Assembly (NCBI GenBank): GCA_002723085.1
Contig: PBNK01000005.1
Location: 1 to 39,398, forward strand
Direction of reading: 5' to 3'
DNA: 39,398 nt
Source of the DNA: Crocinitomicaceae bacterium
Lineage (GTDB): Bacteria > Bacteroidota > Bacteroidia > Flavobacteriales_D > Parvicellaceae
In this document: positions 22,680-36,105 of the stretch, one piece after another
Layout of the letters: every line of letters begins with the position of its first letter
Position numbering within the stretch: the stretch's first letter is position 1
Notes under the pieces: model-generated
Seen by the model: the letters and a program-made list of their open reading frames with translations, nothing else
Databases searched by the model: none
What the model was told of the DNA's origin: nothing
Position numbers and translations under genes: made by a program

Positions 22680-22747
22680 TGTTTAAAATTTTATTTCTTG
22701 TTAATTATTATAATTTACATCTTTCCTTCCAAATTATTAATTTGTAA

Positions 22748-22799
22748 GCCAATGTTGCGTCTAAACTGCTCTTTAATGTTCTTTAGGTTTTATTGTCAA
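22748..22799 (-). other. attC-7 (ends cassette 7)
   Basis: On the - strand: R'' GACAAT, L'' ACCTAAA, apical ATTAAAGAGC, L' GTTTAGACGC, R' CATTGGC. The L arms pair (CTAAA / TTTAG). R'' and R' pair more weakly, as ATTG / CAAT. The formyltransferase gene stops inside the left arm. Most diverged of the seven, and last in the array. Confidence 0.72.
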
Positions 22800-23604
22800 T
22801 CGTTATTTCAACTATTTTGATGTTTTTTCGCTTCTTTGTTAATCCCTCTTTTGAAAATTGACGTCTATGTTTTTTTAAATTTATAATCAAATTAATTTTA
22901 TTCTTTAATTTCCATTCCTTTGAATAGTAAGTTTTACCCTCTCCTAATTTTGACTGTTCTACATTTGAATTATTTTCTTGTGAAATATACTTTACAGCTT
23001 TTAAATATAAAGCATGTGCATGCTCCATTACAGAAATATGGATGTTTAATAATGTGTCACTCCAATTTATATCAGAGAACTCAGTTGTTACAATATTTCC
23101 CGAATCAATACCTTCGTCTATCCACATAATCGTATTTCCAATAATATGGAATTGATTAGTTGCAATACACCAATTCGTACAATTCGGACCTCCTTTTACA
23201 TATGGAGACAGTCCAGTATGTAAATTCAAAATTCCTTTATTAGTTTTAATTGAAAGCATCTTGCTTTTTACAAGCCGAGTTCCTGAAACAATAATTAAAT
23301 CAGGGTTTAATTTTTTAGAAAATTCAAATGCATCTTCGCTATTTATATTCTCAACATCAATTCGTTTTGATTTTGGAAAATCAGGATATTGTTTATTATA
23401 ATAATCTTTCATTCCCAACCATGCATTATTAATTGAAGGCAGAAATAATTTTTCAAAAGCTGAATCAAAAACTTTTCGTAATGTAATTTTTCTTTTTGAA
23501 AGTCTTTTTTCTGTTACAATACCAATAACATTAAATTCCTCGGCTAATTTATTTGCAAGAGCCTTTTGATTAGATTCGTTCCCTATCCAAAGTAGAAGTT
23601 TCAT
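22783..23604 (-). CDS. Formyltransferase-family protein (cassette 7, second gene)
   Basis: 273 residues, resembling the N-terminal domain of methionyl-tRNA formyltransferase and the sugar N-formyltransferases of polysaccharide pathways. Catalytic-site features: GILNLHTGLSPYVKGGPN supplies the Asn and His, and WIDEGIDSGNIVT the Asp, in the usual order. The C-terminal tRNA-binding domain of Fmt is missing, which favours a sugar or small-molecule substrate; that is inference. It overlaps the deacetylase gene by 4 bases (ATGA), and its last codons and stop lie in the left arm of attC-7. Such formyltransferases occur next to glycan-modifying enzymes, consistent with its partner. Confidence 0.82.
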   Translation of the reverse strand: MKLLLWIGNESNQKALANKLAEEFNVIGIVTEKRLSKRKITLRKVFDSAFEKLFLPSINNAWLGMKDYYNKQYPDFPKSKRIDVENINSEDAFEFSKKLNPDLIIVSGTRLVKSKMLSIKTNKGILNLHTGLSPYVKGGPNCTNWCIATNQFHIIGNTIMWIDEGIDSGNIVTTEFSDINWSDTLLNIHISVMEHAHALYLKAVKYISQENNSNVEQSKLGEGKTYYSKEWKLKNKINLIINLKKHRRQFSKEGLTKKRKNIKIVEITIDNKT

Positions 23605-24524
23605 TTATATCTAATTAACTTTTTTATCTTTTCAAGAGTGTTTGAAATTCTCATTCTTGTTTTAATCCAAGGTTCATTGTATAGCTCGATTCTTGAGACC
23701 TCGAATAAATCTTCAGTTGCTGGATTGAAGGTGTCTTGTTTTACAGCTAATCCAATTTTATATCCTAATTCTTGACTTATTTTTTTAGTTCTAATATCGT
23801 AACTTCCAACAGGATATGAAATTGTCAAAGGGTAATAACCAAGTTCTTCTTTAATTCTGTTACGAGACTTTTCAAGTTCAGTTCTTATTTCGTTTTCGTC
23901 TTCAATTGTCCCTAACATAGAATGAGAAACAGTATGGCTTCCTATGTAATGTCCATTATTTTTTAATTTTCTAATATCTTCCCAATCCATCATTAGTTCA
24001 GGAATTTTAATATCCGAAAATGTTTTATCCACTAAATCAAGAACTTGTTTTCTTTTTCCATGCGTTAAAGTTTTCAAGAATGGCTTTAATCCAGAAATAA
24101 ATTTAAGTCTATCTTCATTATTTAAAAAAATTCCCTTTTGATATTTTTTAGGCAAGAAATCAAAAGGTAATTTAATATTGTCAGATTCTGTGTGTTGGAA
24201 TGAATGCTCCAAGATATGCGTCCAAGTTGGTTTGTTTTTATCAATACAATCAGTTACAACATAAAAAGAAGCTTTAACTTTAAATTTATCAAGAATTGGT
24301 AAAGCATATTCAATATTATCTTTGTAACCATCATCAAACATTATTGTTGCATATCTATTTTTTTTAGACAGCTTAACTTTATCAAAAGCTAAATCTTCAA
24401 ATAATAGAACTTCATATTTGTTTGAAATTGTTTTAATGCATTTCTCAAATAACATGACATCCATAGGGTCCCATAGTAGGTCTCTTTTAGGGTTAACTCT
24501 ATGAAATAAAAAATTTCTTATCAT
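23601..24524 (-). CDS. Polysaccharide deacetylase, NodB/CE4 family (cassette 7, first gene)
   Basis: 307 residues, no signal peptide. The NodB core shows motif 1 TIMFDDGYKDN (catalytic base and metal Asp), motif 2 GSHTVSHSMLG (metal His pair) and motif 3 TISYPVGSYD. This family removes acetyl groups from GlcNAc-type sugars; the cytosolic form is often found in surface-polysaccharide gene clusters. It is coupled to the formyltransferase gene (deacetylation would free an amine that could then be formylated, an inferred two-step logic). The ATG is about 28 bases after the R' of attC-6, and both genes lie in one cassette. Confidence 0.88.
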   Translation of the reverse strand: MIRNFLFHRVNPKRDLLWDPMDVMLFEKCIKTISNKYEVLLFEDLAFDKVKLSKKNRYATIMFDDGYKDNIEYALPILDKFKVKASFYVVTDCIDKNKPTWTHILEHSFQHTESDNIKLPFDFLPKKYQKGIFLNNEDRLKFISGLKPFLKTLTHGKRKQVLDLVDKTFSDIKIPELMMDWEDIRKLKNNGHYIGSHTVSHSMLGTIEDENEIRTELEKSRNRIKEELGYYPLTISYPVGSYDIRTKKISQELGYKIGLAVKQDTFNPATEDLFEVSRIELYNEPWIKTRMRISNTLEKIKKLIRYK

Positions 24525-24545: not shown

Positions 24546-24599
24546 CTTGGCAACGTTGCATCTAAACTGCGTTTTAATGTGTTTTAGATTTTGTTGTAA
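24546..24599 (-). other. attC-6 (ends cassette 6)
   Basis: On the - strand: R'' TTACAAC, L'' ATCTAAAAC, apical region with ATTAAAACGC, L' GTTTAGAT, spacer GCAAC, R' GTTGCC. The L arms form an 8-base stem, and R''/R' pair over CAAC / GTTG. No T tract follows. Confidence 0.82.
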
Positions 24600-24608
24600 A
24601 ATATTATA

Positions 24609-26159
24609 TTAATTTTTTATTTCTAAAATTTTATTAATGTAAATATGTTCTTTTTTGATAGTATCTTTTGTAACCATATTAACGAAAACTAAGTCTTCTA
24701 TGTTATGTTTTTTAATTTTAATATCTATGTATTTATATTTTAAGTTTAGTTTTTTGTCGAATTCAATACCGTTAATAATTTGCTCTTCAAATAAATTATT
24801 TTTAGATGTTATTTTAACAGTGCAAAATGCATCTGATATCAAATTTAATGTACTGTCTGATAAATTGAAACTACCATATATATGTCCATAGTCAATATAG
24901 TTTTTGGCAACATTTATTGTTTGTTTAATAATGGAAATTTGCTCTTTTTTAATTGATTTATATTTTTCATTAAAGAGATCAGAGTGAATCATAATAGATT
25001 CGTTTTTGTGATAATCAATTTCTAGTTTAGAAAGAAAATCATCAAAATTAATTATAACATTATACAATAATTTATCTCTTATATTTCTTAATTCATTATC
25101 ACTTAAGAGCAATTTGAAGAATTCGAGGTTAGGAGATGTTGAATATTGTTTGTTTTCATTATCTAATGAATTAAATAAAAAAGAATTGAATTCGCTGAAT
25201 GAGGCTATTTTATTTTCGGGAATTCTAGCTGCTTTATTTTCGGCTCTATAAATTGGATAAAATAACTTACTGTTAAAATCAAAAACAAATTTTAAATTAT
25301 CTCCTGTCATAAAATGTACATCATTAAAAATGGACGCTATTGCTAAATATTTTCCCATATACTCTAAATCAATCATTTCTTTTAATGCCTTAATGTTACC
25401 AGATTTAATGTGTTCGCAAAATAACTTGTAATAACCAAGGGCCAACGGATGTGATTTAGAATTTTTTGCTGAAATATGACCATGATAAAGATCAAAATCA
25501 CTTCTGTGTCGAACACCCGTTGATTTAAATTCTTTTCTTGACCAGTCTGCGGTGTTACTAAGAATGGAACAGTTGTTTATCTTATAATCCTTATGTAATA
25601 GATCTTTACAAATGTCTTCAACAAAACCATAGACGCCAAAATTTCTGTCATTTATAATCAATGATTTCATTATGCCTTTTGGAGCTATTAGCCCAAAAGA
25701 GTTTGCAATATTATTTATCGTAATTATAGATGGGTCACACTCTTCATCGATAATTAATTTGAATTTTTCTTTACCATCAATAGAAAATGATTTAGAATTC
25801 AATTTTAATGTGTATGAGTTTCTATTTCTTGAATTCCAGTAGTGAGGGGCTGAACTTCCATGGAGTTTCAATTTAGCATTATGATAAATTCCATCATTCT
25901 TTATTTGAATATTAACCCACTTTTTTATAGGCTTCTTTTTCTTTATAGTATAGTTTTCTGAATATTCTTTAAGTTTTTTTTCATTTTTGGGCTCAATTCT
26001 TAATGTTATTTTATCAGACTCTTTAAGTGGATTTAATATACGAATACCTATTTTTTTTAAATCGAAAAAAAAGTAATACAATATACTAGCTGAAAACACC
26101 AAAATTATAGCGACCCTGAAGTATTTGTTTGTTAATAAATATTTCTTTTCTTTTTTCAT
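24609..26159 (-). CDS. CotH-like protein with N-terminal membrane anchor (cassette 6)
   Basis: 516 residues. One hydrophobic segment at about residues 13-29 follows a KKEKK start, so the rest is probably periplasmic or external. The segment KLKLHGSSAPHYWNSRNRNSYTLKL, then FKLIIDEECDPSIITINNIANSFGL and IINDRNFGVYGFVEDICKDLL, follows the order of the CotH kinase family. The later catalytic-like part FVFDFNSKLFYPIYRAENKA departs from the usual WD-containing form, so activity is uncertain. CotH proteins of spore formers phosphorylate coat proteins; Bacteroidota homologues are mostly surface proteins of unknown substrate. At ~1.6 kb it is large for an integron cassette. It starts 15 bases after R' of attC-5. 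Confidence 0.75.
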   Translation of the reverse strand: MKKEKKYLLTNKYFRVAIILVFSASILYYFFFDLKKIGIRILNPLKESDKITLRIEPKNEKKLKEYSENYTIKKKKPIKKWVNIQIKNDGIYHNAKLKLHGSSAPHYWNSRNRNSYTLKLNSKSFSIDGKEKFKLIIDEECDPSIITINNIANSFGLIAPKGIMKSLIINDRNFGVYGFVEDICKDLLHKDYKINNCSILSNTADWSRKEFKSTGVRHRSDFDLYHGHISAKNSKSHPLALGYYKLFCEHIKSGNIKALKEMIDLEYMGKYLAIASIFNDVHFMTGDNLKFVFDFNSKLFYPIYRAENKAARIPENKIASFSEFNSFLFNSLDNENKQYSTSPNLEFFKLLLSDNELRNIRDKLLYNVIINFDDFLSKLEIDYHKNESIMIHSDLFNEKYKSIKKEQISIIKQTINVAKNYIDYGHIYGSFNLSDSTLNLISDAFCTVKITSKNNLFEEQIINGIEFDKKLNLKYKYIDIKIKKHNIEDLVFVNMVTKDTIKKEHIYINKILEIKN

Positions 26160-26168
26160 TCTTTAATT

Positions 26169-26225
26169 ACCTACGTTGCGTCTAAACTAAGTTATTCAAT
26201 TTAGTTTAGATTGTGTTATGGATTG
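26169..26225 (-). other. attC-5 (ends cassette 5)
   Basis: On the - strand: R'' ATCCATAAC, spacer ACAA, L'' TCTAAACTAA, 10-base apex ATTGAATAAC, L' TTAGTTTAGA, spacer CGCAAC, R' GTAGGTA. The L arms are a perfect 10-base inverted repeat. R' has lost one T relative to the GTTRRRY pattern. The R'' matches the start of cassette 5 inside attC-4 over 9 bases. Confidence 0.85.
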
Positions 26226-26254: not shown

Positions 26255-26848
26255 CTATATTCTAAAAGTATCCGGAGGTTTTGGAGGAGGAGTAGGAGTA
26301 TGTTTACTGGATTGTTCAGTTAATTCGTTTTTAATCTTTTTCACATCTATAATAATTCCCTCTTTAATATTGAATAAAAGTTCTTTAGAATATAAAGATT
26401 CATAACCAGTGTGAACATAATGAATTAATTTACCATATGGACATCTTATTGTTCCTGAATACCAATCAGCAAAAACTTTAGTTTCTGAATTAAATAAATT
26501 TTTGATGGATAATTCTATCTCCTCAAAGCATTCGTTTTCTAGTGTTTTGATCATAGAAGCCTTTATGGATGGAGGTGGTTTAGTCTCTTCAATTAAAATT
26601 TTTAAATCTAAGTATTTATGGTTGAATTTATTCTGATTTTTAATTTCACCTTTTCCAGAAATATTCTTTAAAAAAAGTTTATTCTTCTTGATTTCCCACT
26701 TGCCAATATATCCCCTCCTTAAAGCTGAATGAGGAGCATGTAAACGAAGTTCTATATTATTTTTTTTTATGTATTGAGAAAATGGCTCACTAACCATACT
26801 AAATCTCTTCCATTTATAAATTAATATTTCTCGTACTTGTGCAGTCAT
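26255..26848 (-). CDS. Conserved hypothetical protein (cassette 5)
   Basis: 197 residues, soluble, no signal peptide. It opens MTAQVREILIYKWKRFSMVSEPF and includes RGYIGKWEIKKNKLFLKNI and VFADWYSGTIRCPYGKLIHYVHTGYESLYSKELLF; the C-terminus is a Pro-rich tail (TPTPPPKPP). From memory, proteins with the same MTAQVRE...SEPL...GxWxI...FAxWxxGxIRxPxGKxLxYVHxGYxS pattern are widespread, uncharacterised and often seen as single genes in accessory DNA; I cannot check this here. The ATG follows R' of attC-4 by about 15 bases. Confidence 0.78.
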   Translation of the reverse strand: MTAQVREILIYKWKRFSMVSEPFSQYIKKNNIELRLHAPHSALRRGYIGKWEIKKNKLFLKNISGKGEIKNQNKFNHKYLDLKILIEETKPPPSIKASMIKTLENECFEEIELSIKNLFNSETKVFADWYSGTIRCPYGKLIHYVHTGYESLYSKELLFNIKEGIIIDVKKIKNELTEQSSKHTPTPPPKPPDTFRI

Positions 26849-26861
26849 TTAATCTCTTTTT

Positions 26862-26940
26862 ATCCATAACGTTGCGTCTAAAATGTCGTGCGAAGGCATG
26901 GATAGGTTAGGGCATGCATTTTAGACTGTGTTGTAGTTAG
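26862..26940 (-). other. attC-4 (ends cassette 4)
   Basis: The longest site. On the - strand: R'' CTACAAC, L'' GTCTAAAATG, a long variable apex containing GCATGCCC and CCATGCC, L' CATTTTAGAC, spacer GCAAC, R' GTTATGGAT. The L arms are a 10-base perfect stem. Confidence 0.85.
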
Positions 26941-26949
26941 TACATAAAA

Positions 26950-27234
26950 TTAAGTTATAATTTTAAAATGATCTTCTAATACATAATAGAAGCATAAGAA
27001 AATCATAATAATTGAAGTTGAAATCTCTAAAATTTCTTTTGATTTAGAATTGAATTTTTTAATGAAAAAATAGATGATTATGCTAGTTGCAAATCCTAAA
27101 ATTATTCCAAACATCATAAATGGAGTTTGAACATCAATCCCATAATCAATAAAATTTAAATTAATACCAACTATAATAATTATTGATTCAATTGTGAATA
27201 TCCAAAAAGTGGTTTTGTAAATCTTTTCAATCAT
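26950..27234 (-). CDS. Small membrane protein (cassette 4), function unknown
   Basis: 94 residues with three hydrophobic helices (about residues 9-27, 38-57 and 68-86) and a Lys-rich loop KKFNSKSKEI. No family recognised. The cassette is small (~0.3 kb) and holds only this gene. The ATG starts just 4 bases from the end of the attC-3 R' sequence, leaving almost no leader, so translation must rely on AT-rich sequence supplied by the preceding attC or on read-through from upstream. Confidence 0.68.
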   Translation of the reverse strand: MIEKIYKTTFWIFTIESIIIIVGINLNFIDYGIDVQTPFMMFGIILGFATSIIIYFFIKKFNSKSKEILEISTSIIMIFLCFYYVLEDHFKIIT

Positions 27235-27237
27235 TTG

Positions 27238-27293
27238 TATTAACTTTTTGGCTAAACTGCGTTTTAATGCAGTTTAGGTTTTGTTAGCATTGG
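27238..27293 (-). other. attC-3 (ends cassette 3)
   Basis: On the - strand: R'' AATGCTAAC, spacer AAAAC, L'' CTAAACTGC, apex ATTAAAAC, L' GCAGTTTAG, spacer CCAAAAA, R' GTTAATA. The L arms are a perfect 9-base stem. The R'' is the exact inverse of the start of cassette 3 in attC-2. The apex is identical to that of attC-1. Confidence 0.88.
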
Positions 27294-27310: not shown

Positions 27311-28891
27311 TTATTTTATCAGAACAACTATGTCTTCAACTGTATAATATGGCTCAGAAGTAATCAAATTGTATACATTCAACGTAGAATAATGTTGTTT
27401 TGATATCTTCTCTATATGAACTTCAATATAGGCACTCAAAGTCCAGTCGTATAGCAACAAGATATCTTTTGAACTTAAATTTTCGGCTTTTTTAATCCCC
27501 TTTGTCGTCAACAAGGGATGATTGCCTGTCATTTGTAAACATTTTGAATAATCATAAATTAAATTTGATTTTGAAGCGATTAATTGGTTAGGCACTGAAT
27601 AATAAATTTCAATGATATTATTGTTGTTTAACTTGTGTTTTTCTATTTCAAGAACTATAGTTGTCACTAGCTGACCATTCATGTAGGAAATTAATTCTTC
27701 GCCAATGTTTATTTGTTCTATGGGTTTCGATATACCACTTTTGAGGCGTGTCTTCGATCCCTGAGGAAAACACATTTCTTCCATGTCACAATTTCCATCC
27801 CAAATCAGCTTTCCTTCCCAATTAAGTATGTCCCAGCCACCGCCTTTATTTACAACTTTTATGAAGGAGTCGTTCCAATCAATTTCAATATCATCCCAAA
27901 AGGATTTGTAATCTTTTGGGAAGGTAAATTCTATTTTAGTTCCTTTTTTATCTATGAAAGCACCATCCGCAAATGCTTTGCCGTGATGAAATGATTTAGC
28001 TGATGAATATTTAGCTTCAATGACAATCTCACCATTCTCATTTATATACCCCCATTTCCCATTTAATTTTACAGCACTTAATCCATCTCTAAAAGGTAGA
28101 GCAGCTTCATAAATAAATGGTAAGTCCTCTTGTCCATCCTTTCCCAGGTAGCCCCATTTATTATTTTTTTCAACAGGAAATAAAGGTATTGATTGATCTA
28201 TACCAGAAGAATTCATTGAAGAAAACTCCACTAAATATTCACCTTTGTTATATGTAACGTCCGATAACCATTTTTTTTCTTCAAAAGAGTACAATCCATA
28301 TTTACCATCTTTACTCTTTTTGTTAGTAGCTAAAGCAATCTCTCCTTTAAAACTATAGTAAAAAAGTTTTTCCGACCAATCTCCAACAATAACACCTTGC
28401 TTGTTTATATACTGCCACGTACCTGCGTTATCAGGATCCCAAGAGGCGTTATCTACCATTGATATATCACCAGTAAAGTTAAAAGCGTTGCCATATTCAG
28501 GTTGAAGTACATAATTTCCTGCAGTATCAATATACCCAAATTTACCATCTACTGAAACTACAGCTATACCGTCCACAAACTGAGAGTAAAGTTTATAATC
28601 ATATTGGGGTTTAATTGCCCATACACCTTGCTCATTGATACAACCCATTTTTTCTGTCTTTGTGTCATACATAAATTTCAATCCATTATAAAAGAACGGG
28701 TCAGATCCTAATGACGTCATGTTTTCTAGTCGTTTTCGATTTCCTTCTGTATTAACTAAATAATAAGTTTCCTCCTTATTGACATCATTATCTTGGCAAT
28801 GACGCAAAACAACTGAATTTTGGGCAAAAGATTTGGAAATCGCTAAAAGTGTAACAAAGCTAATGGTGCCAATAAGGATTATATTTTTCAT
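27311..28891 (-). CDS. Secreted WG-repeat protein with C-terminal Hint (intein/hedgehog-like) domain (cassette 3)
   Basis: I chose the ATG at 28891 because it begins a good signal peptide (MKNIILIGTISFVTLLAISKSFAQ). The frame is open 19 codons further, but those codons lie inside attC-2. The mature N-terminal ~350 residues hold WG/KWG beta-hairpin repeats (KFGYIDTAGNYVLQPEY, KWGYINENGEIVIEAKY and similar). A Hint domain then begins at CFPQGSKTRLKSGISKPIEQINIGEELIS with its nucleophilic Cys, has TGNHPLLTTKG (the NHP block) and ends LNVYNLITSEPYYTVEDIVV. There is no terminal HN and no toxin domain after it, so hedgehog-like N-terminal cleavage or esterification is more plausible than intein splicing. 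The cargo role is unknown. Confidence 0.82.
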   Translation of the reverse strand: MKNIILIGTISFVTLLAISKSFAQNSVVLRHCQDNDVNKEETYYLVNTEGNRKRLENMTSLGSDPFFYNGLKFMYDTKTEKMGCINEQGVWAIKPQYDYKLYSQFVDGIAVVSVDGKFGYIDTAGNYVLQPEYGNAFNFTGDISMVDNASWDPDNAGTWQYINKQGVIVGDWSEKLFYYSFKGEIALATNKKSKDGKYGLYSFEEKKWLSDVTYNKGEYLVEFSSMNSSGIDQSIPLFPVEKNNKWGYLGKDGQEDLPFIYEAALPFRDGLSAVKLNGKWGYINENGEIVIEAKYSSAKSFHHGKAFADGAFIDKKGTKIEFTFPKDYKSFWDDIEIDWNDSFIKVVNKGGGWDILNWEGKLIWDGNCDMEEMCFPQGSKTRLKSGISKPIEQINIGEELISYMNGQLVTTIVLEIEKHKLNNNNIIEIYYSVPNQLIASKSNLIYDYSKCLQMTGNHPLLTTKGIKKAENLSSKDILLLYDWTLSAYIEVHIEKISKQHYSTLNVYNLITSEPYYTVEDIVVLIK

Positions 28892-28907
28892 AATTATTTT
28901 TTTTATT

Positions 28908-28973
28908 AATGCTAACGGTTTAGTGTATGGGGCGTGCCAATAAGGCATGCACTATACACCTTGTTGTGTGCCG
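28908..28973 (-). other. attC-2 (ends cassette 2)
   Basis: On the - strand: R'' GGCACACAAC, L'' GTGTAT, a long apex with GCATGCC / GGCACGC pairing, L' ATACAC, spacer TAAACC, R' GTTAGCATT. The R'' exactly inverts the start of cassette 2 in attC-1 over 10 bases. Cassette 2's stop codon TAG lies in the left arm. Confidence 0.87.
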
Positions 28974-29446
28974 TTTATAATTTTATTTAGATTCTTAATA
29001 AGATCAATTTTGAGAAAAATTCCACCTATAATTCCATTTATGATCCCAAGTCCCAGAAATAGCCAAAGTTGGTAAATCGAATAGCCAATTATTGAATCAA
29101 AAAGTTCAAGTTGTCCTATTTCGATTGTTCTTACAATTCCTAATATGATAGCTTTTGAATAAAGAATTAAAACCCAAGTCATTCCCAATGTTAATACTGA
29201 ATAGTAATAAAGGTTTTTTTCAGTTTTTTTCATCCTACGATAGAGAAGTTTGGAAAATAAAATCCCAACTATTGGAATAGAAACAATCGTTGCTATAGTC
29301 TCTGTCTTGTTTAACTTCAAATATTCTACACTTGGAATTTCATTGATTAACCAAAACACTATCATCGTTATCATGATTGCAATTAAATAATGTCGAAGTA
29401 GTATTTTAAATGTTTCTCTCAAATTTGTTTTTTTAATGGCACACAA
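28952..29446 (-). CDS. Four-helix membrane protein (cassette 2), function unknown
   Basis: Up to 164 residues with four predicted membrane helices (about 18-35, 47-66, 78-105 and 120-145), a basic N-terminus and a basic SKLLYRRMKKTEK loop. The start is uncertain: no ATG precedes the first helix. The longest frame begins at a TTG that is part of the R' core of attC-1, a second TTG lies near residue 9, and the first ATG is inside helix 1. The last residues and the TAG stop lie in the attC-2 left arm. No family recognised. Confidence 0.65.
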   Translation of the reverse strand: MCAIKKTNLRETFKILLRHYLIAIMITMIVFWLINEIPSVEYLKLNKTETIATIVSIPIVGILFSKLLYRRMKKTEKNLYYYSVLTLGMTWVLILYSKAIILGIVRTIEIGQLELFDSIIGYSIYQLWLFLGLGIINGIIGGIFLKIDLIKNLNKIINGTQQGV

Positions 29447-29496
29447 CGGTTTGTATAAAAAGCGTTTTAATGCTTTTTATACTTTGTTGTGTACAG
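29438..29496 (-). other. attC-1 (ends cassette 1)
   Basis: The cleanest site. On the - strand: R'' ACACAAC, spacer AAA, L'' GTATAAAAAGC, apex ATTAAAAC, L' GCTTTTTATAC, spacer AAACC, R' GTTGTGT. L''/L' is a perfect 11-base stem and R''/R' a perfect 7-base stem, with unequal spacers (3 versus 5) giving the extrahelical asymmetry expected of attC. Confidence 0.9.
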
Positions 29497-30243
29497 TATT
29501 TTGTTGAAATATTCTTCAGTCAATGAAGCATCAAGTTTGTTATAAAAGTCTATAATTAGCATTCTCTTATTTTTGATATTGTCATAGGTCTCAACCAAAT
29601 TATAAAATCCATTTTTAGGTGAAAATAAGTTTTTAGCAAACGCATTAAAATCATTCTCAATAGTAGATGTCGCGTATTCATAGATAAATCCCAAATTGTT
29701 TAGTTCTTTGTCAAATTTTTGTGAATCCTTATTTTGCTTAAGAGCATCTACACCACTATTACCATAATTAAAGTTAATTGGGTTAATTTTTTTCCATTCA
29801 GATTCATTAAAACTATGTTTATGATTTCTCAACAAAATACTTGAGAATTCAGCGTGAAAAAGCTGTTCTATGTATAGGGCAGTATATCCATTAACTATCC
29901 CTCTATTTGTTAAATAAATGTTGGAATTTGAGTTTGTCCCTCCAAATGACTGGCCAAAGAAGTTAATATGTGACAGGACGTAAATATTTTTCAAATTACT
30001 CTTAACTAATTTGACAGGATAATGTTGAAGAACATCTTTAATGATTTTTTCACTACGCGCATATTCGTTTGATTCAATAGAGATTCCTTTGGCATTAATT
30101 CTCTTTGAGTACCAACTTTCAGGAAATATCCTCCCATCAGCTGTGAAAATTATTTTTACTCCAGTTCTTTTGTCTATTACAATATCCTGTCCAAATGATG
30201 CAAATGAGCAAAATAAGACAGCTATTAAAGCTACAGTTTTCAT
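29467..30243 (-). CDS. Secreted protein, possibly metallopeptidase-like (cassette 1)
   Basis: 258 residues with a signal peptide ending SFASFGQ (residue ~19). The segment YIEQLFHAEFSSILLRNH resembles the degenerate H-E-F-S-S helix seen in some putative zinc-metallopeptidase-like lipoproteins of Bacteroidota, but a clear HExxH is missing and there is no lipobox Cys; assignment is tentative. It is the cassette nearest the recombinase, in the position where a newly captured cassette would sit. Its last eight residues and stop codon are encoded by the left arm of attC-1. Confidence 0.72.
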   Translation of the reverse strand: MKTVALIAVLFCSFASFGQDIVIDKRTGVKIIFTADGRIFPESWYSKRINAKGISIESNEYARSEKIIKDVLQHYPVKLVKSNLKNIYVLSHINFFGQSFGGTNSNSNIYLTNRGIVNGYTALYIEQLFHAEFSSILLRNHKHSFNESEWKKINPINFNYGNSGVDALKQNKDSQKFDKELNNLGFIYEYATSTIENDFNAFAKNLFSPKNGFYNLVETYDNIKNKRMLIIDFYNKLDASLTEEYFNKILYTTKYKKH

Positions 30244-30253
30244 TTCTTTTAAT

Positions 30254-30305
30254 TGTACACAACGAGGGAATATACGTATTACGTTTATTTCCTATATGTT
30301 CTAAG
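30254..30305 (-). other. attI or first attC-like hairpin directly after the recombinase gene
   Basis: It begins one base after the recombinase stop codon. On the - strand: TTAGAAC, ATAT, then a near-perfect stem AGGAAATAAACG / ACGTATATTCCCT with the apex TAAT, then C and R' GTTGTGTACA. R' is the start of cassette 1. The arms do not share the L sequences of the seven attC sites and the spacer asymmetry is reversed, so this could be the attI site or a diverged attC. Confidence 0.65.
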
Positions 30306-31140
30306 TTATAAAAAATTTAAGCTATCAGATGGATTCCTGATGTTTTTTAAATGAGTACTGCTAACATGTGTATATATCTGTGTTGTTTTAATATCGTTAT
30401 GACCTAAAATGGTTTGAATAAACCTAATATCAGTCCCATTTTCTAGTAGGTGAGTGGCAAAACTATGTCTAAGAGTGTGTGGAGTTACCCTTTTATAAAT
30501 ACCAGCCCTTTTAGATGAAGATTTTATAATTTTCTGAATACTTGTTGCAGAATATTTATCGCCATTTTGTCCGTTAATTAAAAAACCAATTGGTTTATAA
30601 CTTTTGTAATAAACTCTTAACAAGTGTAATATACTCTCAGTAAGTTGTACTTGTCTGTCTTTGTTTCCTTTGGCATTTTTTATATTAATGACCATTCTTT
30701 TGTTATCAATGTCTGTTATTTTTAAATTAATCAATTCAGAAACTCTAAGCCCACAAGAATAAATTACTGCTAAAATGGTACGGTGTTTTAAATTATATGT
30801 TGAACTTATTAGATTTTGAACTTCTGATTTGCTTAAAACTATAGGCAGTTTTTTTATCCTTAATAGGTCTTTCTACAAAATAGAATTCTCTTTTTCTATT
30901 AAGAAATTTTTCATAATAATATTTAATTGCATTTATGTGTTGATTTTGGGTACTCTTTGAATACCCTTTCTTAACAATTATTTCCATATAATTTAATATA
31001 TCTTGCTTAGATAGTGATTCGATTTCAAAATTAACATGGTGGTTAAAAAATGTATTTAAGCAGGCTTTGTATGTTTTAATTGTATTTAGGCTATATCCCT
31101 TTAAAACAAGACGTTGTTCAATGCGTTGTAAAGTATTCAT
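30306..31140 (-). pseudogene. XerC/IntI-like tyrosine recombinase, frameshifted
   Basis: Conceptual product ~277 residues. The first part (from ATG 31140) carries an N-terminal SAM-like core-binding domain (RLVLKGYSLNTIKTYKACLNTFF). At an A7 run (30855-30849 on the - strand) the frame is lost; dropping one A restores KKLPIVLSKSEVQNLI...SCGLRVSELINL with no further stop. The catalytic domain then has Arg in GLRVSEL, Lys in AKGNKDRQ, HTLRHSFATHLL (HxxR), GHNDIKTTQIYTHV (His, Tyr) and an IRNPSDSL tail comparable to the IntI end. The ~16-20 residue IntI-specific insertion before the HxxR box is absent. It is either a dead gene, one expressed by slippage at A7, or a sequencing error. Confidence 0.82.
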
Positions 31141-31263
31141 GATTTAAATTTTAGTATTTGGGTTTACTTGTTCTGTTTTAAAACATTTGTATTCGTTTTT
31201 TGTCGTTTATACTTATTTTTAATTGCTTTGCATGTAAAGATTATTTGATATTTATTTGTGAGT

Positions 31264-31626
31264 ATGAGTAAAAAAAACTGTTTAGAATGTGAAGAACTGC
31301 TTATAGGAAGAGTAGATAAAAAGTTTTGTAACGATCAGTGCCGCAATTCTTTTAACAATAGAGTCAATAAAGATGCCAACGATTACGTAAGAAAGGTGAA
31401 TGTTATTTTACGTAAAAACAGAAGAATATTAACTAGTTTAATGAATGGCGATAAAGGAAAAGCCACAAAGGAGCAATTGCTTTTGAACGGTTTTAATTTT
31501 TATTATTACACCAACATTTACACTACAAAACAGGGTAAAACCTATTACTTTATTTACGAATTGGGATATCTTGAACTTGAAGATGAACAATATGCTTTGG
31601 TTAAAAAACAAGAATACGTTAAGTAA
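31264..31626 (+). CDS. Small zinc-ribbon-containing protein
   Basis: About 120 residues. I prefer the ATG at 31264 over an in-frame GTG two codons earlier. The N-terminus has CLECEELLIGRVDKKFCNDQCRN, a CxxC...CxxxC zinc-binding pattern. The rest is a basic helix and a beta-rich tail (FYYYTNIYTTKQGKTYYFIYELGYLELEDEQYALV). Proteins of this pattern are common in Flavobacteriales and uncharacterised. It is divergent from the recombinase across 123 bases, and aroQ starts 31 bases after its stop, possibly co-transcribed. Confidence 0.8.
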   Translation: MSKKNCLECEELLIGRVDKKFCNDQCRNSFNNRVNKDANDYVRKVNVILRKNRRILTSLMNGDKGKATKEQLLLNGFNFYYYTNIYTTKQGKTYYFIYELGYLELEDEQYALVKKQEYVK

Positions 31627-31657
31627 TTTCATTTCTTTGTAATTTAGAACAACCATC

Positions 31658-32071
31658 ATGAAAAAAATCTTAATTATCAACGGTCCAAACTTAAACTTGT
31701 TAGGTAAAAGAGAGCCCGATACTTACGGGAATACCACTTTTGATAATTATTTTAAAGAATTGATCATAGATTTTCCAGACTTAGATTTACACACTTTTCA
31801 AAGCAATGTGGAAGGAGAAATCATTAATGAGTTACACGACAAAGGTTTTTCTTATGATGGTATTGTGCTAAACGCTGGGGGATATACCCATACTTCAGTT
31901 GCAATTGCTGATGCTGTAGCTGCTATTGAGACACCTGTAATTGAAGTTCACATAAGCAATGTTCATGCTCGAGAAGAATTTCGTCATCAATCGTTAATGG
32001 CAAAAAACTGTAAAGGAATAATTGCTGGTTTTGGTTTAGACTCTTACCGATTAGCCTTGGCTTCTTTTTGA
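31658..32071 (+). CDS. aroQ: Type II 3-dehydroquinate dehydratase
   Basis: 137 residues, close to the usual ~140-150. This shikimate-pathway enzyme turns 3-dehydroquinate into 3-dehydroshikimate in the cytosol. Signature stretches are all present: INGPNLNLLGKREPDTYG (with the catalytic Arg/Tyr loop), FQSNVEGEIINELH, LNAGGYTHTSVAIADA, EVHISNVHAREEFRHQS (catalytic His and Arg) and GFGLDSYRLAL. It is convergent with maf, with 6 bases between the stops. Confidence 0.96.
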   Translation: MKKILIINGPNLNLLGKREPDTYGNTTFDNYFKELIIDFPDLDLHTFQSNVEGEIINELHDKGFSYDGIVLNAGGYTHTSVAIADAVAAIETPVIEVHISNVHAREEFRHQSLMAKNCKGIIAGFGLDSYRLALASF

Positions 32072-32077
32072 GACTGT

Positions 32078-32668
32078 TCAGTCAATTAATTTATTAACTT
32101 CCCTATACAACTTATGAAGTGGGAGTCCCATTACATTGAAAAAGTCGCCTTCCATTTTTTGAATGCCTACATAACCCATCCATTCTTGGATACCGTAAGA
32201 CCCTGCCTTGTCAAAAGGTTGGTGTTTGTTTATATAGTAGTTAATCTCTTCATCTGAAAGGTCGTAAAAACTAACATGAGTAGCATCGTAAAAAGAAGTA
32301 ATTCTACCTTTAAAAAGTAAACTAACGCCAGTATATACAACATGAGTTTTGCCAGATAATGATCGCAACATGTCGTAAGCTTCTTGATGACTTTTTGGTT
32401 TCCCCAAAACTATATCTCCAAGACAAACAATGGTATCTGCTGTAATGATTAAGTCATCCCTTTTATCTAATATAAAAGCTTTTGCTTTTTGCTCGGAAAT
32501 GTATTGAGCAATGTTTCCACCTTTTAGTGAATTAGGAAAAGTTTCGTCAATTTCTCTAACCTCAATCTTGAAATTAGAAAATATATTTTTTAGTAGCTCT
32601 TGTCTTCTTGGTGATTTTGAGGCAAGAAGGATGTTTATGTGATTAATTTTTTCGTCTAAAATATTCAT
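32078..32668 (-). CDS. maf: Maf-like nucleoside triphosphate pyrophosphatase
   Basis: 196 residues from the chosen start; the ATG at 32668 overlaps the stop of the prenyltransferase gene (ATGA), which favours it over an in-frame ATG eight codons earlier. Maf proteins hydrolyse dTTP/UTP and modified nucleotides. Motifs: LLASKSPRRQELL (S-x-RR), the EQKAKAF helix, ITADTIVCLGD (catalytic Asp), GKPKSHQEAYDMLRSLSGKTHVVYTGV and YGIQEWMGYVGIQKMEGDFFNVMGLPL. Last gene of the - strand operon. Confidence 0.94.
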   Translation of the reverse strand: MNILDEKINHINILLASKSPRRQELLKNIFSNFKIEVREIDETFPNSLKGGNIAQYISEQKAKAFILDKRDDLIITADTIVCLGDIVLGKPKSHQEAYDMLRSLSGKTHVVYTGVSLLFKGRITSFYDATHVSFYDLSDEEINYYINKHQPFDKAGSYGIQEWMGYVGIQKMEGDFFNVMGLPLHKLYREVNKLID

Positions 32669-33546
32669 AGTAACAGTTTTAGATATATCCATATTCCAGC
32701 TCCTAAAAACACCAATTTTAAATATAAGCTTAACTTACTAAAATCTGTGCTTTTTTTACTTTTATTAAGTTGAATTAAAAAATAGAAGAGTGGTGGGAAA
32801 ATTAATATTGGAAATAGTAGAATGATAAATGAAATGTGATTTGATAGTTCTAAAAAAGAGATACTTGCCACTGTTATAATTGTTAATAAGGCAATTAACA
32901 AGCATACCAATTTTGTTGGCCCTATGCCAGCTACTACTGCTAGTGTTTTGCTTTCTACTGCTTGATCCCCTACAATGTCTTCACCATCTTTTATGACTTC
33001 CCTTAATAAAGTGAGAAGAAATGCAAATAGAGTATAGGTCCAAGAAATTCCATTAACATTACTTAAATTAAATTCTACTTCCCATATGCCGTTAATTTTA
33101 TGGTCATATATTAATGGAACAATCATTACCAATCCACATAGAAATGAAACAACAAAGTTTCCAATTAAGGGTAAGTGTTGTAAAACCCAAGAATAGAAGA
33201 ATAAAAGAACATTAGTTAGTGCAATTAAAATGAGCCAATTTGTGTTTAAATTGGATATGAAAATGGCTAAAACAGCAATTAAAGCATTAAATATTGAAAG
33301 AAAAAGGAGTTGATTAGCAGAAAGTAGACTTTTAGCTTTATAGGTGTTTAATTTATCGCTTTCAATGTCAAAAAAATCATTAATTAGGTACCCGCTTGCT
33401 GCACTGAGCAAAATAGAAATAAAAAGTAAAGTAAAGTCAAATTCTATAATGTTTTCTGGAGAAATTAATCCTCTAAATCCCCAGAATAATATGCCTAAGA
33501 GAAATAAATTACCAATTCTAATGGCTCTGAAATAGTCTTTTACCAT
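32665..33546 (-). CDS. UbiA-family prenyltransferase (geranylgeranylglycerol-phosphate geranylgeranyltransferase-like)
   Basis: 293 residues from ATG 33546, which overlaps the stop of the HAD gene (ATGGTAA); the frame is open 23 codons further upstream but that part is inside the HAD gene. Eight or so membrane helices. The two Asp-rich motifs of the UbiA family are clear: LINDFFDIESDK and LREVIKDGEDIVGDQAVESKT, which bind Mg-prenyl diphosphate. The product is often annotated as GGGP synthase-like in Flavobacteriales; the acceptor is not determinable from this sequence. Confidence 0.88.
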   Translation of the reverse strand: MVKDYFRAIRIGNLFLLGILFWGFRGLISPENIIEFDFTLLFISILLSAASGYLINDFFDIESDKLNTYKAKSLLSANQLLFLSIFNALIAVLAIFISNLNTNWLILIALTNVLLFFYSWVLQHLPLIGNFVVSFLCGLVMIVPLIYDHKINGIWEVEFNLSNVNGISWTYTLFAFLLTLLREVIKDGEDIVGDQAVESKTLAVVAGIGPTKLVCLLIALLTIITVASISFLELSNHISFIILLFPILIFPPLFYFLIQLNKSKKSTDFSKLSLYLKLVFLGAGIWIYLKLLL

Positions 33547-34064
33547 TTTAAAGCATCCTTGTCCATCCATTTCCCTTGAACTCTCATGGTTTGTTCTAAG
33601 ATATCTCTTACGCAACCTTTTCCTCCGTTTAGGTGTGAAATGTAGTCTGAAATTTCTCTAATTTCAACTGCAGCATCATTAGGGCAAGAACCTATGCCTG
33701 CCATTTCTATACAAGGGTAATCTGGAATATCATCACCCATGTACACCATTTGACTGGCATCTATGTTGTTTTCACTCAAATAATTTTCTAAAACACTTAA
33801 TTTTTCATGAACAGCTAAAAACACATCTTTAATTCCTAATCCCTCAAGCCTTTTCTTCACCATAGGTGAGTTTCCTCCAGTAATTATACAAATATTATAT
33901 CCTTTTTTGATGGCATGTTGAAGTGCATACCCATCCTTTGTATGCATGGTTCTTACCATATCTCCTGAAGAGTCTAAAATGACCAATCCATCTGTTAATA
34001 CTCCGTCAACGTCAAATACAAAAGTGGTTATGTCTTTTAATCGTTGTTTATAGCTCATGGTCAT
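33540..34064 (-). CDS. HAD-superfamily phosphatase, KdsC-like
   Basis: 174 residues, the length of KdsC (KDO 8-phosphate phosphatase). Motif I FVFDVDGVLTDG with both Asp, motif II TGGN, motif III Lys in the KKRLEGLGI / KLSVLENYL region, and motif IV MGDDIPDYPCIEMAGI are in the canonical cap-less C0 arrangement. The substrate could be KDO 8-phosphate (LPS synthesis) or a related phosphosugar. It overlaps both neighbours in the operon. Confidence 0.88.
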   Translation of the reverse strand: MTMSYKQRLKDITTFVFDVDGVLTDGLVILDSSGDMVRTMHTKDGYALQHAIKKGYNICIITGGNSPMVKKRLEGLGIKDVFLAVHEKLSVLENYLSENNIDASQMVYMGDDIPDYPCIEMAGIGSCPNDAAVEIREISDYISHLNGGKGCVRDILEQTMRVQGKWMDKDALKW

Positions 34065-34836
34065 GGTGTTTTTTAAGAATTTGTTTGCTAAAAAGTTCGT
34101 AAATTTCTTTAAGATTAGAATCGTTTTCTAATAAATTAAGGTGATTTTCAATCAATTTTAAATCTTTTCTTGAAGCTGGACCAGTTTGCATAGAAAATGC
34201 TTCTTTTTCAAATGAGTTATCAATAGATTTTTGAAGTAAGAATTTTAAATCTTCATAATTCAAATCATTTTCTTCACAAAAAGATTTAATAGTACTTAAT
34301 AAATGATAAGTGAAATTATTGGTTGATACGGCAGAAATATGAAGCTTTTTTCTTTGATCAGAATTGACTTTGCTAAAATTAAATTCAAGTTTTTTACAAA
34401 CTGAACCTATTAATTTTTCATCTTCATTATTTGATGCTTCAATATAAAAAGCCACTTCTTTCCAATTTATATTATCATTTTTAATTAAGGTTTGCATAGG
34501 GTATAGGCATCCCCATCTTTTTGAAAAAGGATTTATTTTTTTGCTTTCTAAGCTACCTGAAGTATGTATAATTAGCTTTTCTGTTAAATCCATTCCTTTT
34601 AGTATTTCTAGATAGTAATCATCTTTCAATGCAACAAGATAGAATGTGGAATTATTAGGTATTCTATTTTTTTCAGAAATATATATCGAATTAACAGCTT
34701 TAGCTAATGAAATTCCGGAGGCTTTATGTTTATTGTAAATAGCGTCAATAGATATTCCTTTTTTAAAGAACAATTTAGCCAATTGAGAGCCAACATTTCC
34801 AGATCCTATTATAGTTGCGCTGATTTTTTTTTCCAA
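34048..34836 (-). CDS. Rossmann-like and DUF2520 domain protein
   Basis: 262 residues. The N-terminal Rossmann NAD(P)-binding motif is TIIGSGNVGSQLAKLFFKKG, with IIHTSGSLES in the middle of that domain, followed by the helical DUF2520 domain (LHISAVSTNNFTYHLLSTIKSFCEENDLNYEDLKFLL, TGPASRKDLKLIENHLNLL). It resembles the 6-phosphogluconate/hydroxyisobutyrate dehydrogenase fold, but the reaction is unknown. It overlaps the HAD gene start by 17 bases and abuts the HEAT-like gene. Confidence 0.88.
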   Translation of the reverse strand: MEKKISATIIGSGNVGSQLAKLFFKKGISIDAIYNKHKASGISLAKAVNSIYISEKNRIPNNSTFYLVALKDDYYLEILKGMDLTEKLIIHTSGSLESKKINPFSKRWGCLYPMQTLIKNDNINWKEVAFYIEASNNEDEKLIGSVCKKLEFNFSKVNSDQRKKLHISAVSTNNFTYHLLSTIKSFCEENDLNYEDLKFLLQKSIDNSFEKEAFSMQTGPASRKDLKLIENHLNLLENDSNLKEIYELFSKQILKKHHDHEL

Positions 34837-35376
34837 CTAAATTTCAATTTGTGATTCGAATTGCTGAATTACAGAAAGTAAAGATTGAAGCAAATTTAAA
34901 ATGGATTCGTCTTTACAATCGTTGATTTTCTCATTTATAATAGATGTTGCTAAAAACAAATCATCTTCAATAAATGGTCCTTCTAAATTTTCAATTAATG
35001 TTAACGCTTCAAGCAAGACCATAAAATCTCCATTACATGCAGTTTCTACAATAAGTGGAATGTGATCAGTTAAGTCAAATCCTGAACTCCATAAAGAATG
35101 CAATATTAGTTCTTTAGTGCTGTTATTTTCTTTTTCAAGAAAGGGCATTAATTCCCCAATTGATTTGGTGTTTTTTAGTTGGGAAAGAATTGACTTTATT
35201 TCATTTCTAATGTTTTCATTAGAAGTGTTTTCGTATAAATGAACCAATGGAACAATATGTTTTTCATTTCCTTTGTCTTTGATTTTAGTCAATGCTTTTT
35301 TCACCAATTTTAGATCTTCGCTTTTAAGATCTTTTATCAGTTGAATGTTAAAAGTAGTTTTTGTGCTTTCGCCCAT
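34837..35376 (-). CDS. HEAT-repeat-like helical protein, function unknown
   Basis: 179 residues from the preferred ATG at 35376 (MGESTKTTFNIQLI); an in-frame ATG at 35400 is possible. All-helical, with HEAT-like pairs (DLKLVKKALTKIKDKGNEKHIVPLVHLYENT; NEIKSILSQLKNTKSIGELMPFLEKE; DFMVLLEALTLIENLEG). Probably a protein-interaction scaffold. Its stop directly abuts the DUF2520 gene start, so it belongs to the same operon. Confidence 0.8.
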   Translation of the reverse strand: MGESTKTTFNIQLIKDLKSEDLKLVKKALTKIKDKGNEKHIVPLVHLYENTSNENIRNEIKSILSQLKNTKSIGELMPFLEKENNSTKELILHSLWSSGFDLTDHIPLIVETACNGDFMVLLEALTLIENLEGPFIEDDLFLATSIINEKINDCKDESILNLLQSLLSVIQQFESQIEI

Positions 35377-35445
35377 TTTTTTGAATTTATTAAGGGCCAC
35401 AAAAGTAAGATAATAAGATAATATAAATTGAATTTAAGGCAATAA

Positions 35446-36105
35446 TTAATGCCTAGCTCCAAATAGACTGCTTCCAACCCTAATCATATTGCTTCCGTTT
35501 TTAATGGCAATATCATAATCGTTACTCATTCCCATTGAAATTGTATTGAATTCATTAGGCTTATGAATAAGTTTTTTCATTTCATCAAAATAAGATTTAA
35601 GTTGCTTAAATTCTTGTTCGACCTGTGTTTTGTTATCAGTGAATGTAGCCATGCCCATAACTCCTTTGAAGACTATATTTTCCCATTTTAAGTGTTTGTT
35701 CTCATAAATAATGGATTTTAATTCTTCAATAGAAAAACCAAATTTTGTGCTTTCTTTAGCAATATGAAACTGAATTAAACAAGGTATTTTACGGTTGTTT
35801 TTTTTTCCTTGTTTGTTGATTTCGTTCATAAGTCTTTCACTGTCTACTCCATGAATTAAATGAACAAAAGAAGCAATGTGTTTTACTTTATTACGTTGAA
35901 GATGACCAATCATGTGCCAACGAATGTCTTTTGACATTTTTTCATGTTTTTCTATCAATTCTTGGACTTTGTTTTCTCCAAAATCTAAATGACCACTATT
36001 TAAAGCATCTTCAATTAGGGCAATTGGTTTTGTTTTAGAAACAGCAATCAATTGCACATCTAAGGGCAATGACTTTTTAAAGTCAATTATTTTTTCAGCA
36101 ATCAA
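35446..36105 (-). CDS. YggS/PLPBP-family pyridoxal-phosphate homeostasis protein
   Basis: 219 residues, normal for the family. The PLP lysine is in LIAVSKTKPI, followed by FGENKVQELIEKHEKM, IRWHMIGHLQRNKVKHI, HGVDSERL, FKGVMGMATFTDN and ISMGMSNDYDIAIKNGSNMIRVGSSLFG, all canonical. These proteins carry PLP on a TIM barrel and influence B6 and amino-acid homeostasis without a known enzymatic reaction. It overlaps the hydrolase gene by 4 bases. Confidence 0.95.
   Translation of the reverse strand: MIAEKIIDFKKSLPLDVQLIAVSKTKPIALIEDALNSGHLDFGENKVQELIEKHEKMSKDIRWHMIGHLQRNKVKHIASFVHLIHGVDSERLMNEINKQGKKNNRKIPCLIQFHIAKESTKFGFSIEELKSIIYENKHLKWENIVFKGVMGMATFTDNKTQVEQEFKQLKSYFDEMKKLIHKPNEFNTISMGMSNDYDIAIKNGSNMIRVGSSLFGARH

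Follow-up and report, generated by a model that had tools for sequence, protein, structure and literature searches.

The 39,398-nucleotide stretch analysed here (the window) raises the question of whether a tyrosine recombinase without the IntI-specific insertion, the I2 helix, can run an array of attC-like hairpin cassettes. We consider it probable, at roughly 85%, that the locus is an integron-like gene-capture platform run by an I2-less, XerA-related integrase. Support for this reading at the level of sequence comes from several lines of evidence: a putative integrase without I2 is co-located with an attI-like site and an attC array, the boxes of the cassettes pair, the junction falls at GTT, and the cassettes turn over.

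Recombinase and cassette array in the window

The initial annotation placed a recombinase at 30306-31140, and these coordinates fit the whole gene, but a frameshift that splits it was overlooked. Under table 11 the gene appears as two minus-strand open reading frames (30306-30734 and 30793-31140), and all-frame translation recovers one recombinase with a one-base break at a run of seven A, where the reading passes between frames 0 and 1. Because the copy in a species of the same genus (G012) is unbroken, with 277 residues and 95% identity to the window's gene, the break is best read as an assembly error or a recent mutation. Programmed frameshifting at the run was considered and rejected, as the shift required differs from the -1 slip of such a run and the congener is unbroken. 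Since the gene is frameshifted in this assembly, the present activity of the window's integrase is uncertain. The catalytic residues R132, K160, H221, R224, H247 and Y256 are invariant in the family alignment, and the host genome encodes separate XerC/D-like genes (contigs C41 and C13).

On the minus strand the recombinase stop codon is followed directly by a palindrome and CTCGTTGTGT, and then by seven cassettes in the same direction, each with a terminal hairpin site (Table 1). Eight sites lie within 22.7-30.3 kb of the window, and in cassettes 1-5 the GTT start box is complementary to the cassette's own end box over 9/9, 9/9, 9/9, 8/9 and 9/9 nucleotides; the boxes of cassettes 6 and 7 are decayed. 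The initial description of these sites as attC-like is thereby upheld, as is the co-orientation of recombinase and cassettes, which is general across the family. The likeness then drawn to the Treponema integron also holds by its published definition, in which integrase and cassettes point in one direction and the integrase is treated as intI (PMC3607928); the family considered here forms a clade separate from sampled IntI. Rfam and tRNA scans gave no matches, and a promoter scan for a cassette promoter (Pc) performed no better than on shuffled sequence. The WG repeats of cassette 3 (27311-28948) with their C-terminal Hint-like stretch are uncommon cassette cargo. Elsewhere in the window, a gene for a large OmpA-like protein with tandem 81-nt calcium-binding-type repeats (12698-15298) is ordinary for Bacteroidota.

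Table 1. Coordinates of the recombinase, its flank, the attI-like and attC-like sites and the cassettes in the window.
Feature	Position	Strand	Remarks
Conserved chromosomal 5′ neighbourhood	31258-36105	.	122-aa ORF, 137-aa AroQ-like ORF, further genes; syntenic in six species
Tyrosine recombinase (integron-integrase-like, without I2 insertion)	30306-31140	-	Pfam PF00589 + PF13495; 277 aa when read across frameshift
Run of seven A on coding strand (seven T on plus strand), frame break	30849-30855	-	frames 0/1 join; intact in congener G012
attI-like site	30257-30311	-	palindrome GGAAATAAACGTAATACGTATATTCC, then CTC, then GTT of cassette 1; overlaps recombinase 3′ end; unique in window
Cassette 1 ORF	29467-30243	-	258 aa; zinc metallopeptidase match weak, under Pfam cut-off
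attC-like S7	29441-29492	-	perfect 11-bp stem
Cassette 2 ORF	28952-29446	-	164 aa; no family above cut-off
attC-like S6	28910-28969	-	
Cassette 3 ORF	27311-28948	-	545 aa; WG repeats, weak Hint match
attC-like S5	27238-27289	-	stem 9 bp
Cassette 4 ORF	26950-27234	-	94 aa
attC-like S4	26864-26942	-	
Cassette 5 ORF	26255-26848	-	197 aa
attC-like S3	26168-26221	-	GTT to GTA
Cassette 6 ORF	24609-26159	-	516 aa
attC-like S2	24548-24599	-	end box match lost
Cassette 7, two ORFs	22783-24524	-	formyltransferase-like (22783-23604), polysaccharide deacetylase (23601-24524)
attC-like S1	22747-22797	-	decayed; recognisable array stops here

Comparison with related genomes shows that the flank stays fixed and that the cassettes are completely replaced. 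Several species and genera share homologous genes in the same order on the integrase's 5′ side; cassette ORFs have no match between the compared arrays even at 97% integrase identity, some of these arrays ending at contig ends. DNA identity with the congener extends past the end of the integrase gene, across the palindrome and as far as CGTTGT; in four species sets (the window's congener and three others) it ends at GTT, which places the crossover there and shows turnover at a fixed platform.

An I2-less enzyme and its relation to XerA, IntI and XerC/D

The G.G..DR and H.LRHS boxes are separated by 58 residues in the window's recombinase and by 58-59 in 69 of 71 measurable family sequences, compared with 62-66 in XerC/D and 100 in canonical IntI of the same phylum (18/18). 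An AlphaFold model of the full-length member L055 (mean pLDDT 82) has no extra helix, and so no I2, between helices 271-284 and 301-314, and the early claim that the IntI-specific insertion is missing was therefore correct. Because the insertion is absent between the boxes, the IntI profile TIGR02249 aligns to the family only as two pieces (2-178 and 239-315) and scores intact relatives at 216 bits (the congener copy) and 234 bits, below its cut-off of 265; the intact congener copy scores 240 bits against the XerA-type profile NF040815, above that cut-off of 220. NCBI already names this wider family 'site-specific tyrosine recombinase/integron integrase'. Structural comparison of the L055 model by Foldseek returns archaeal XerA first (4A8E and 5HXY) and then the Vibrio integron integrase 2A3V. 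The C-terminal IRNPSDSL, previously likened to the IntI tail, does carry a real motif, [SN]P.[DE].[LMIF], which is found in 51/74 family members, 13/20 IntI and 0/20 XerC/D; it is not IntI-specific, since 21/45 more distant XerA-like relatives have it as well.

In a 155-row tree the family is one clade with support 97, which takes in five rows, Bacteroidota or other, that had initially been labelled distant, and leaves Spirochaetota L078 outside. Sampled IntI form their own clade (support 100) with the family outside it, and a branch with support 100 sets XerC/D apart from the family. A 70-row tree gives the family a support of only 69 and does not reject family and IntI as one group (p-AU 0.278), so that the enzyme may be a pre-I2 relic or may have originated independently. 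By sequence, tree and fold it is nearer archaeal XerA and IntI than XerC/D. XerA resolves chromosome dimers, and the archaeal relatives that were scanned (L099 and L113) have no arrays on the 3′ side. Conservation of the insertion within the integron-like subgroup has been noted to be incomplete (PMC8138268).

Most family members carry an extra N-terminal domain of 70-100 residues that the window's lineage lacks. Its model (pLDDT 88) resembles the XPB damage-recognition domain, UvsW and, less so, SMARCAL1 HARP, all weakly: the HARP Pfam match is 0.012 (one hit), Foldseek E values to XPB/HARP are 0.07-0.6, and VIA-align Z is at most 6.8. As a lead only, it may be a domain of the XPB/HARP kind and assist in holding folded DNA. 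The domain (e.g., L055:9668-9895) is apparently doubled in L063, L042 and L060.

Arrays across Bacteroidia and the structure of their attC sites

Homologues were taken from the host's family of genomes and from across Bacteroidota. The recombinase family is present in roughly 195 of 395 Bacteroidia genomes (E below about 1e-75), a figure counted by hand as 259 matches at 1e-55 minus 64 with only Xer-like values. On the integrase strand and 3′ side, two sets of family loci hold 2.78 and 2.03 sites per 10 kb, compared with 0.0-0.61 in the other quadrants and 0.28 for XerC/D controls. Where the 3′ flank is 5 kb or longer, at least two sites that obey the rule occur in 25/38 family loci, in 0/18 XerC/D loci (Fisher 1e-6) and in 2/31 distant relatives, one of these two being a member of the Bacteroidota clade; the scanner detected no array at the other 13 of the 38 family loci. 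A palindrome with arms of at least 9 followed by GTTR is found in 18/69 family members and 0/20 XerC/D. Relatives on viral contigs mostly have no array within 3 kb, and the Mesorhizobium locus L122 has rule-obeying sites that resemble GC-rich chance matches and were set aside. Contigs often stop less than 300 bases from where the integrase gene ends on its 3′ side (L034, L035, L036, L042, L043, L049, L059 and L081), as though the arrays had interrupted assembly.

Tree and gene neighbourhood rule out an ordinary XerC/D or phage integrase. The idea of a distinct lineage of XerC-like enzymes with hairpin arrays survives in part: an insertion-less lineage does head arrays, but sequence, tree and fold do not make it XerC-like. 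The outcome that had been named as refuting this idea, a grouping with ordinary phage or XerD enzymes and no relatives beside arrays, was checked for, and the recombinase instead falls in a separate clade with array-heading relatives.

Box pairing between neighbouring sites is found in 55/76 cases (shuffled mean 13, maximum 26 in 2000). Since the scanner demands YAAC, GTTR and a stem, and stem statistics are partly selected by it, sites were also identified from 8-nt complementarity to the preceding box alone; a strong stem (score at least 8) comes next at 67% of AAC ends found in this way and at 2.7% of other YAAC. These results, together with site density, cassette turnover and the GTT junction, make it exceedingly improbable that the array is a chance cluster of inverted repeats such as terminators in AT-rich DNA beside an ordinary phage-type recombinase. 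Some of the hairpin sites do score as terminator-like, but shuffled windows yield about one site above score 9.

A different possibility is that a canonical IntI encoded elsewhere acts on the array, which would then be an ordinary integron remnant (CALIN) with the neighbouring recombinase as a bystander. The sites follow the standard RYYYAAC/GTTRRRY layout and class 1 integrons use a blaVEB cassette, as this would lead one to expect. However, canonical IntI exceeds the cut-off in 0/39 genomes of the host family and 1/395 of the class (105/395 in a phylum-wide sample), so that no standard integrase is available in trans, and it is members of the recombinase clade that stand at the head of the arrays, on a constant side and strand, whereas IntI arrays from this phylum are found 5′ of the integrase, on the opposite strand, and have bulged stems. 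A remnant of this kind is accordingly quite unlikely. The sole canonical IntI among the 395 Bacteroidia genomes (L228, genome G075) is basal in the sampled IntI clade.

The first-pass ungapped scanner under-detects IntI attC, and family and IntI sites were therefore compared with a gapped scanner. Arms of equal length and free of gaps are found in 90/121 rule-obeying family sites and recurrent A.C mismatches mark the stems, in contrast to the 64/67 IntI attC of the same phylum with 1-3 bulged bases and the 3/67 with none. In IntI, I2 accommodates the extrahelical bases of attC (PMC4792948), which ties lack of the helix to lack of the bulges; that the two absences go together, as these alignments suggest, is central to our reading.

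The same features bear on whether the hairpins might be recombined as double-stranded DNA by Xer-type chemistry, in the manner of pdif modules and dif-using elements, with folding incidental. The lack of I2, stems that mimic duplex with few bulges and an attI that is a clean palindrome would all suit such a reaction, and Xer-type use of a duplex-mimicking hairpin site is known for CTXphi (PMC4792948). Neighbouring stems nevertheless differ widely in sequence yet stay paired, and the 131-nt sites have long variable tips, so that recognition of structure rather than sequence is expected. Furthermore, pairing is a property of the cassette (55/76) and not of the single site (24/125); integrons show the same arrangement, one attC being restored when the cassette is excised as a circle. 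We therefore judge recombination as duplex DNA unlikely, though deserving of consideration, and retain recombination of folded sites as the working reading.

In the proposed mechanism the tyrosine recombinase would insert cassettes at the palindromic attI directly behind its own stop codon and would excise or shuffle them at the attC hairpins, with strand cutting at G|TT. We infer that the enzyme itself performs recombination and that, as in integrons, attC is used in folded single-stranded form; conserved A.C mismatches in the otherwise unbulged stem, together with the loop and unequal spacers, would replace extrahelical bases in strand choice. Canonical integrons (IntI of class 1, Vibrio and Chlorobi/Ignavibacteria/Salinibacter) have in common with this system attI and array, RYYYAAC/GTTRRRY boxes, cassette pairing, GTT crossover and a blaVEB cassette. 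They differ in that the family integrase has no I2, its attC stems are mostly without extrahelical bases, and its attI and array lie on the 3′ side of the co-oriented integrase gene.

Plasmid relatives and implications

In a translated search of plasmids (tblastn), Acinetobacter, Klebsiella and Aeromonas yielded truncated members of the family. Behind the truncated xerD/tpnF gene of Acinetobacter (NZ_CP041297.1, L334:5007-7160) come an attI-like palindrome, GTTATGTG, tet(X3) and an attC of which the left part is present; this 'xerD' is a family member with 66% identity to a Bacteroidales homologue. The Klebsiella plasmid (NZ_CP061701.1, L337:5109-6730) has a truncated family member, a palindrome, GTTAGCGG and blaVEB-3. 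With this junction as query, some 40 other plasmids match from base 193-204, mostly 195-196, GTT being at base 196, and the blaVEB matches include class 1 integrons, arrays with IntI1; one cassette therefore appears at the same bond in both systems. In the blaVEB attC the end box, CCGCTAAC, matches the start box GTTAGCGG; the arms of this attC show the A.C pattern together with one bulged C. For tet(X2) on a Sphingobacterium plasmid the match likewise starts at GTT, base 195. Together these junctions suggest that tet(X) and blaVEB originated in the I2-less system.

Family integrases with arrays are also found on other plasmids. A Bacteroides ovatus plasmid (NZ_CP081918.1, L339:5698-12777) carries a family integrase (81% to L072) and then co-oriented immunity genes with hairpins between them, the boxes reading ATTA instead of GTTA; this array has the look of an rAID cluster. 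Ross et al. (Nature, 2019) are said to have described rAID of gut Bacteroidales as a defence-gene array with an XerD-like recombinase. The rAID arrays of the gut seem to fall within the present recombinase family, and the class-wide family, attI and the I2/bulge comparison go beyond that description. On a Chryseobacterium plasmid (NZ_CP041688.1, L338:8937-13560) a family-integrase array has three attC-like sites, each of 148 nt and nearly identical to one another, and also holds an IS110 transposase and a group II intron.

Previous work treated the enzyme of the tet(X) region on Acinetobacter plasmids as XerD and credited ISCR2 (PMC8635130, PMC7473080), and the role of XerD beside tet(X) was posed as an open question (PMC7473080). 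The same attI-like palindrome and GTT before tet(X3) would offer an explanation, in which this 'xerD' is a family integrase with an attI-like junction. A broader reading, held tentatively and at a little less than even odds, is that a cassette-capturing I2-less lineage reading unbulged hairpins, either a pre-I2 stage or of independent origin, was the original home of tet(X)/blaVEB cassettes that passed to class 1 integrons and Acinetobacter.

Within the Bacteroidetes/Chlorobi group, reports of complete integrons are limited to Chlorobi, Ignavibacteriae and Salinibacter (PMC9024848). The IntI-specific domain is a requirement of IntegronFinder (PMC9668308), which is thus expected to see at most CALINs at family arrays. 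Our literature search, with preprints and most subscription papers outside its scope, found no paper linking an I2-less enzyme to attC arrays across Bacteroidia. Relatives of the I2-less recombinase head similar hairpin-flanked arrays across this class and also adjoin tet(X3) and blaVEB-3 on plasmids. The conversion of a Xer-like enzyme to an integron integrase is attributed to the I2 helix, and missing natural intermediates have been stated as a limit (PMC7790495, PMC4792948). With about two hundred sampled genomes carrying I2-less enzymes of an array-heading family, the step from Xer to IntI becomes testable.
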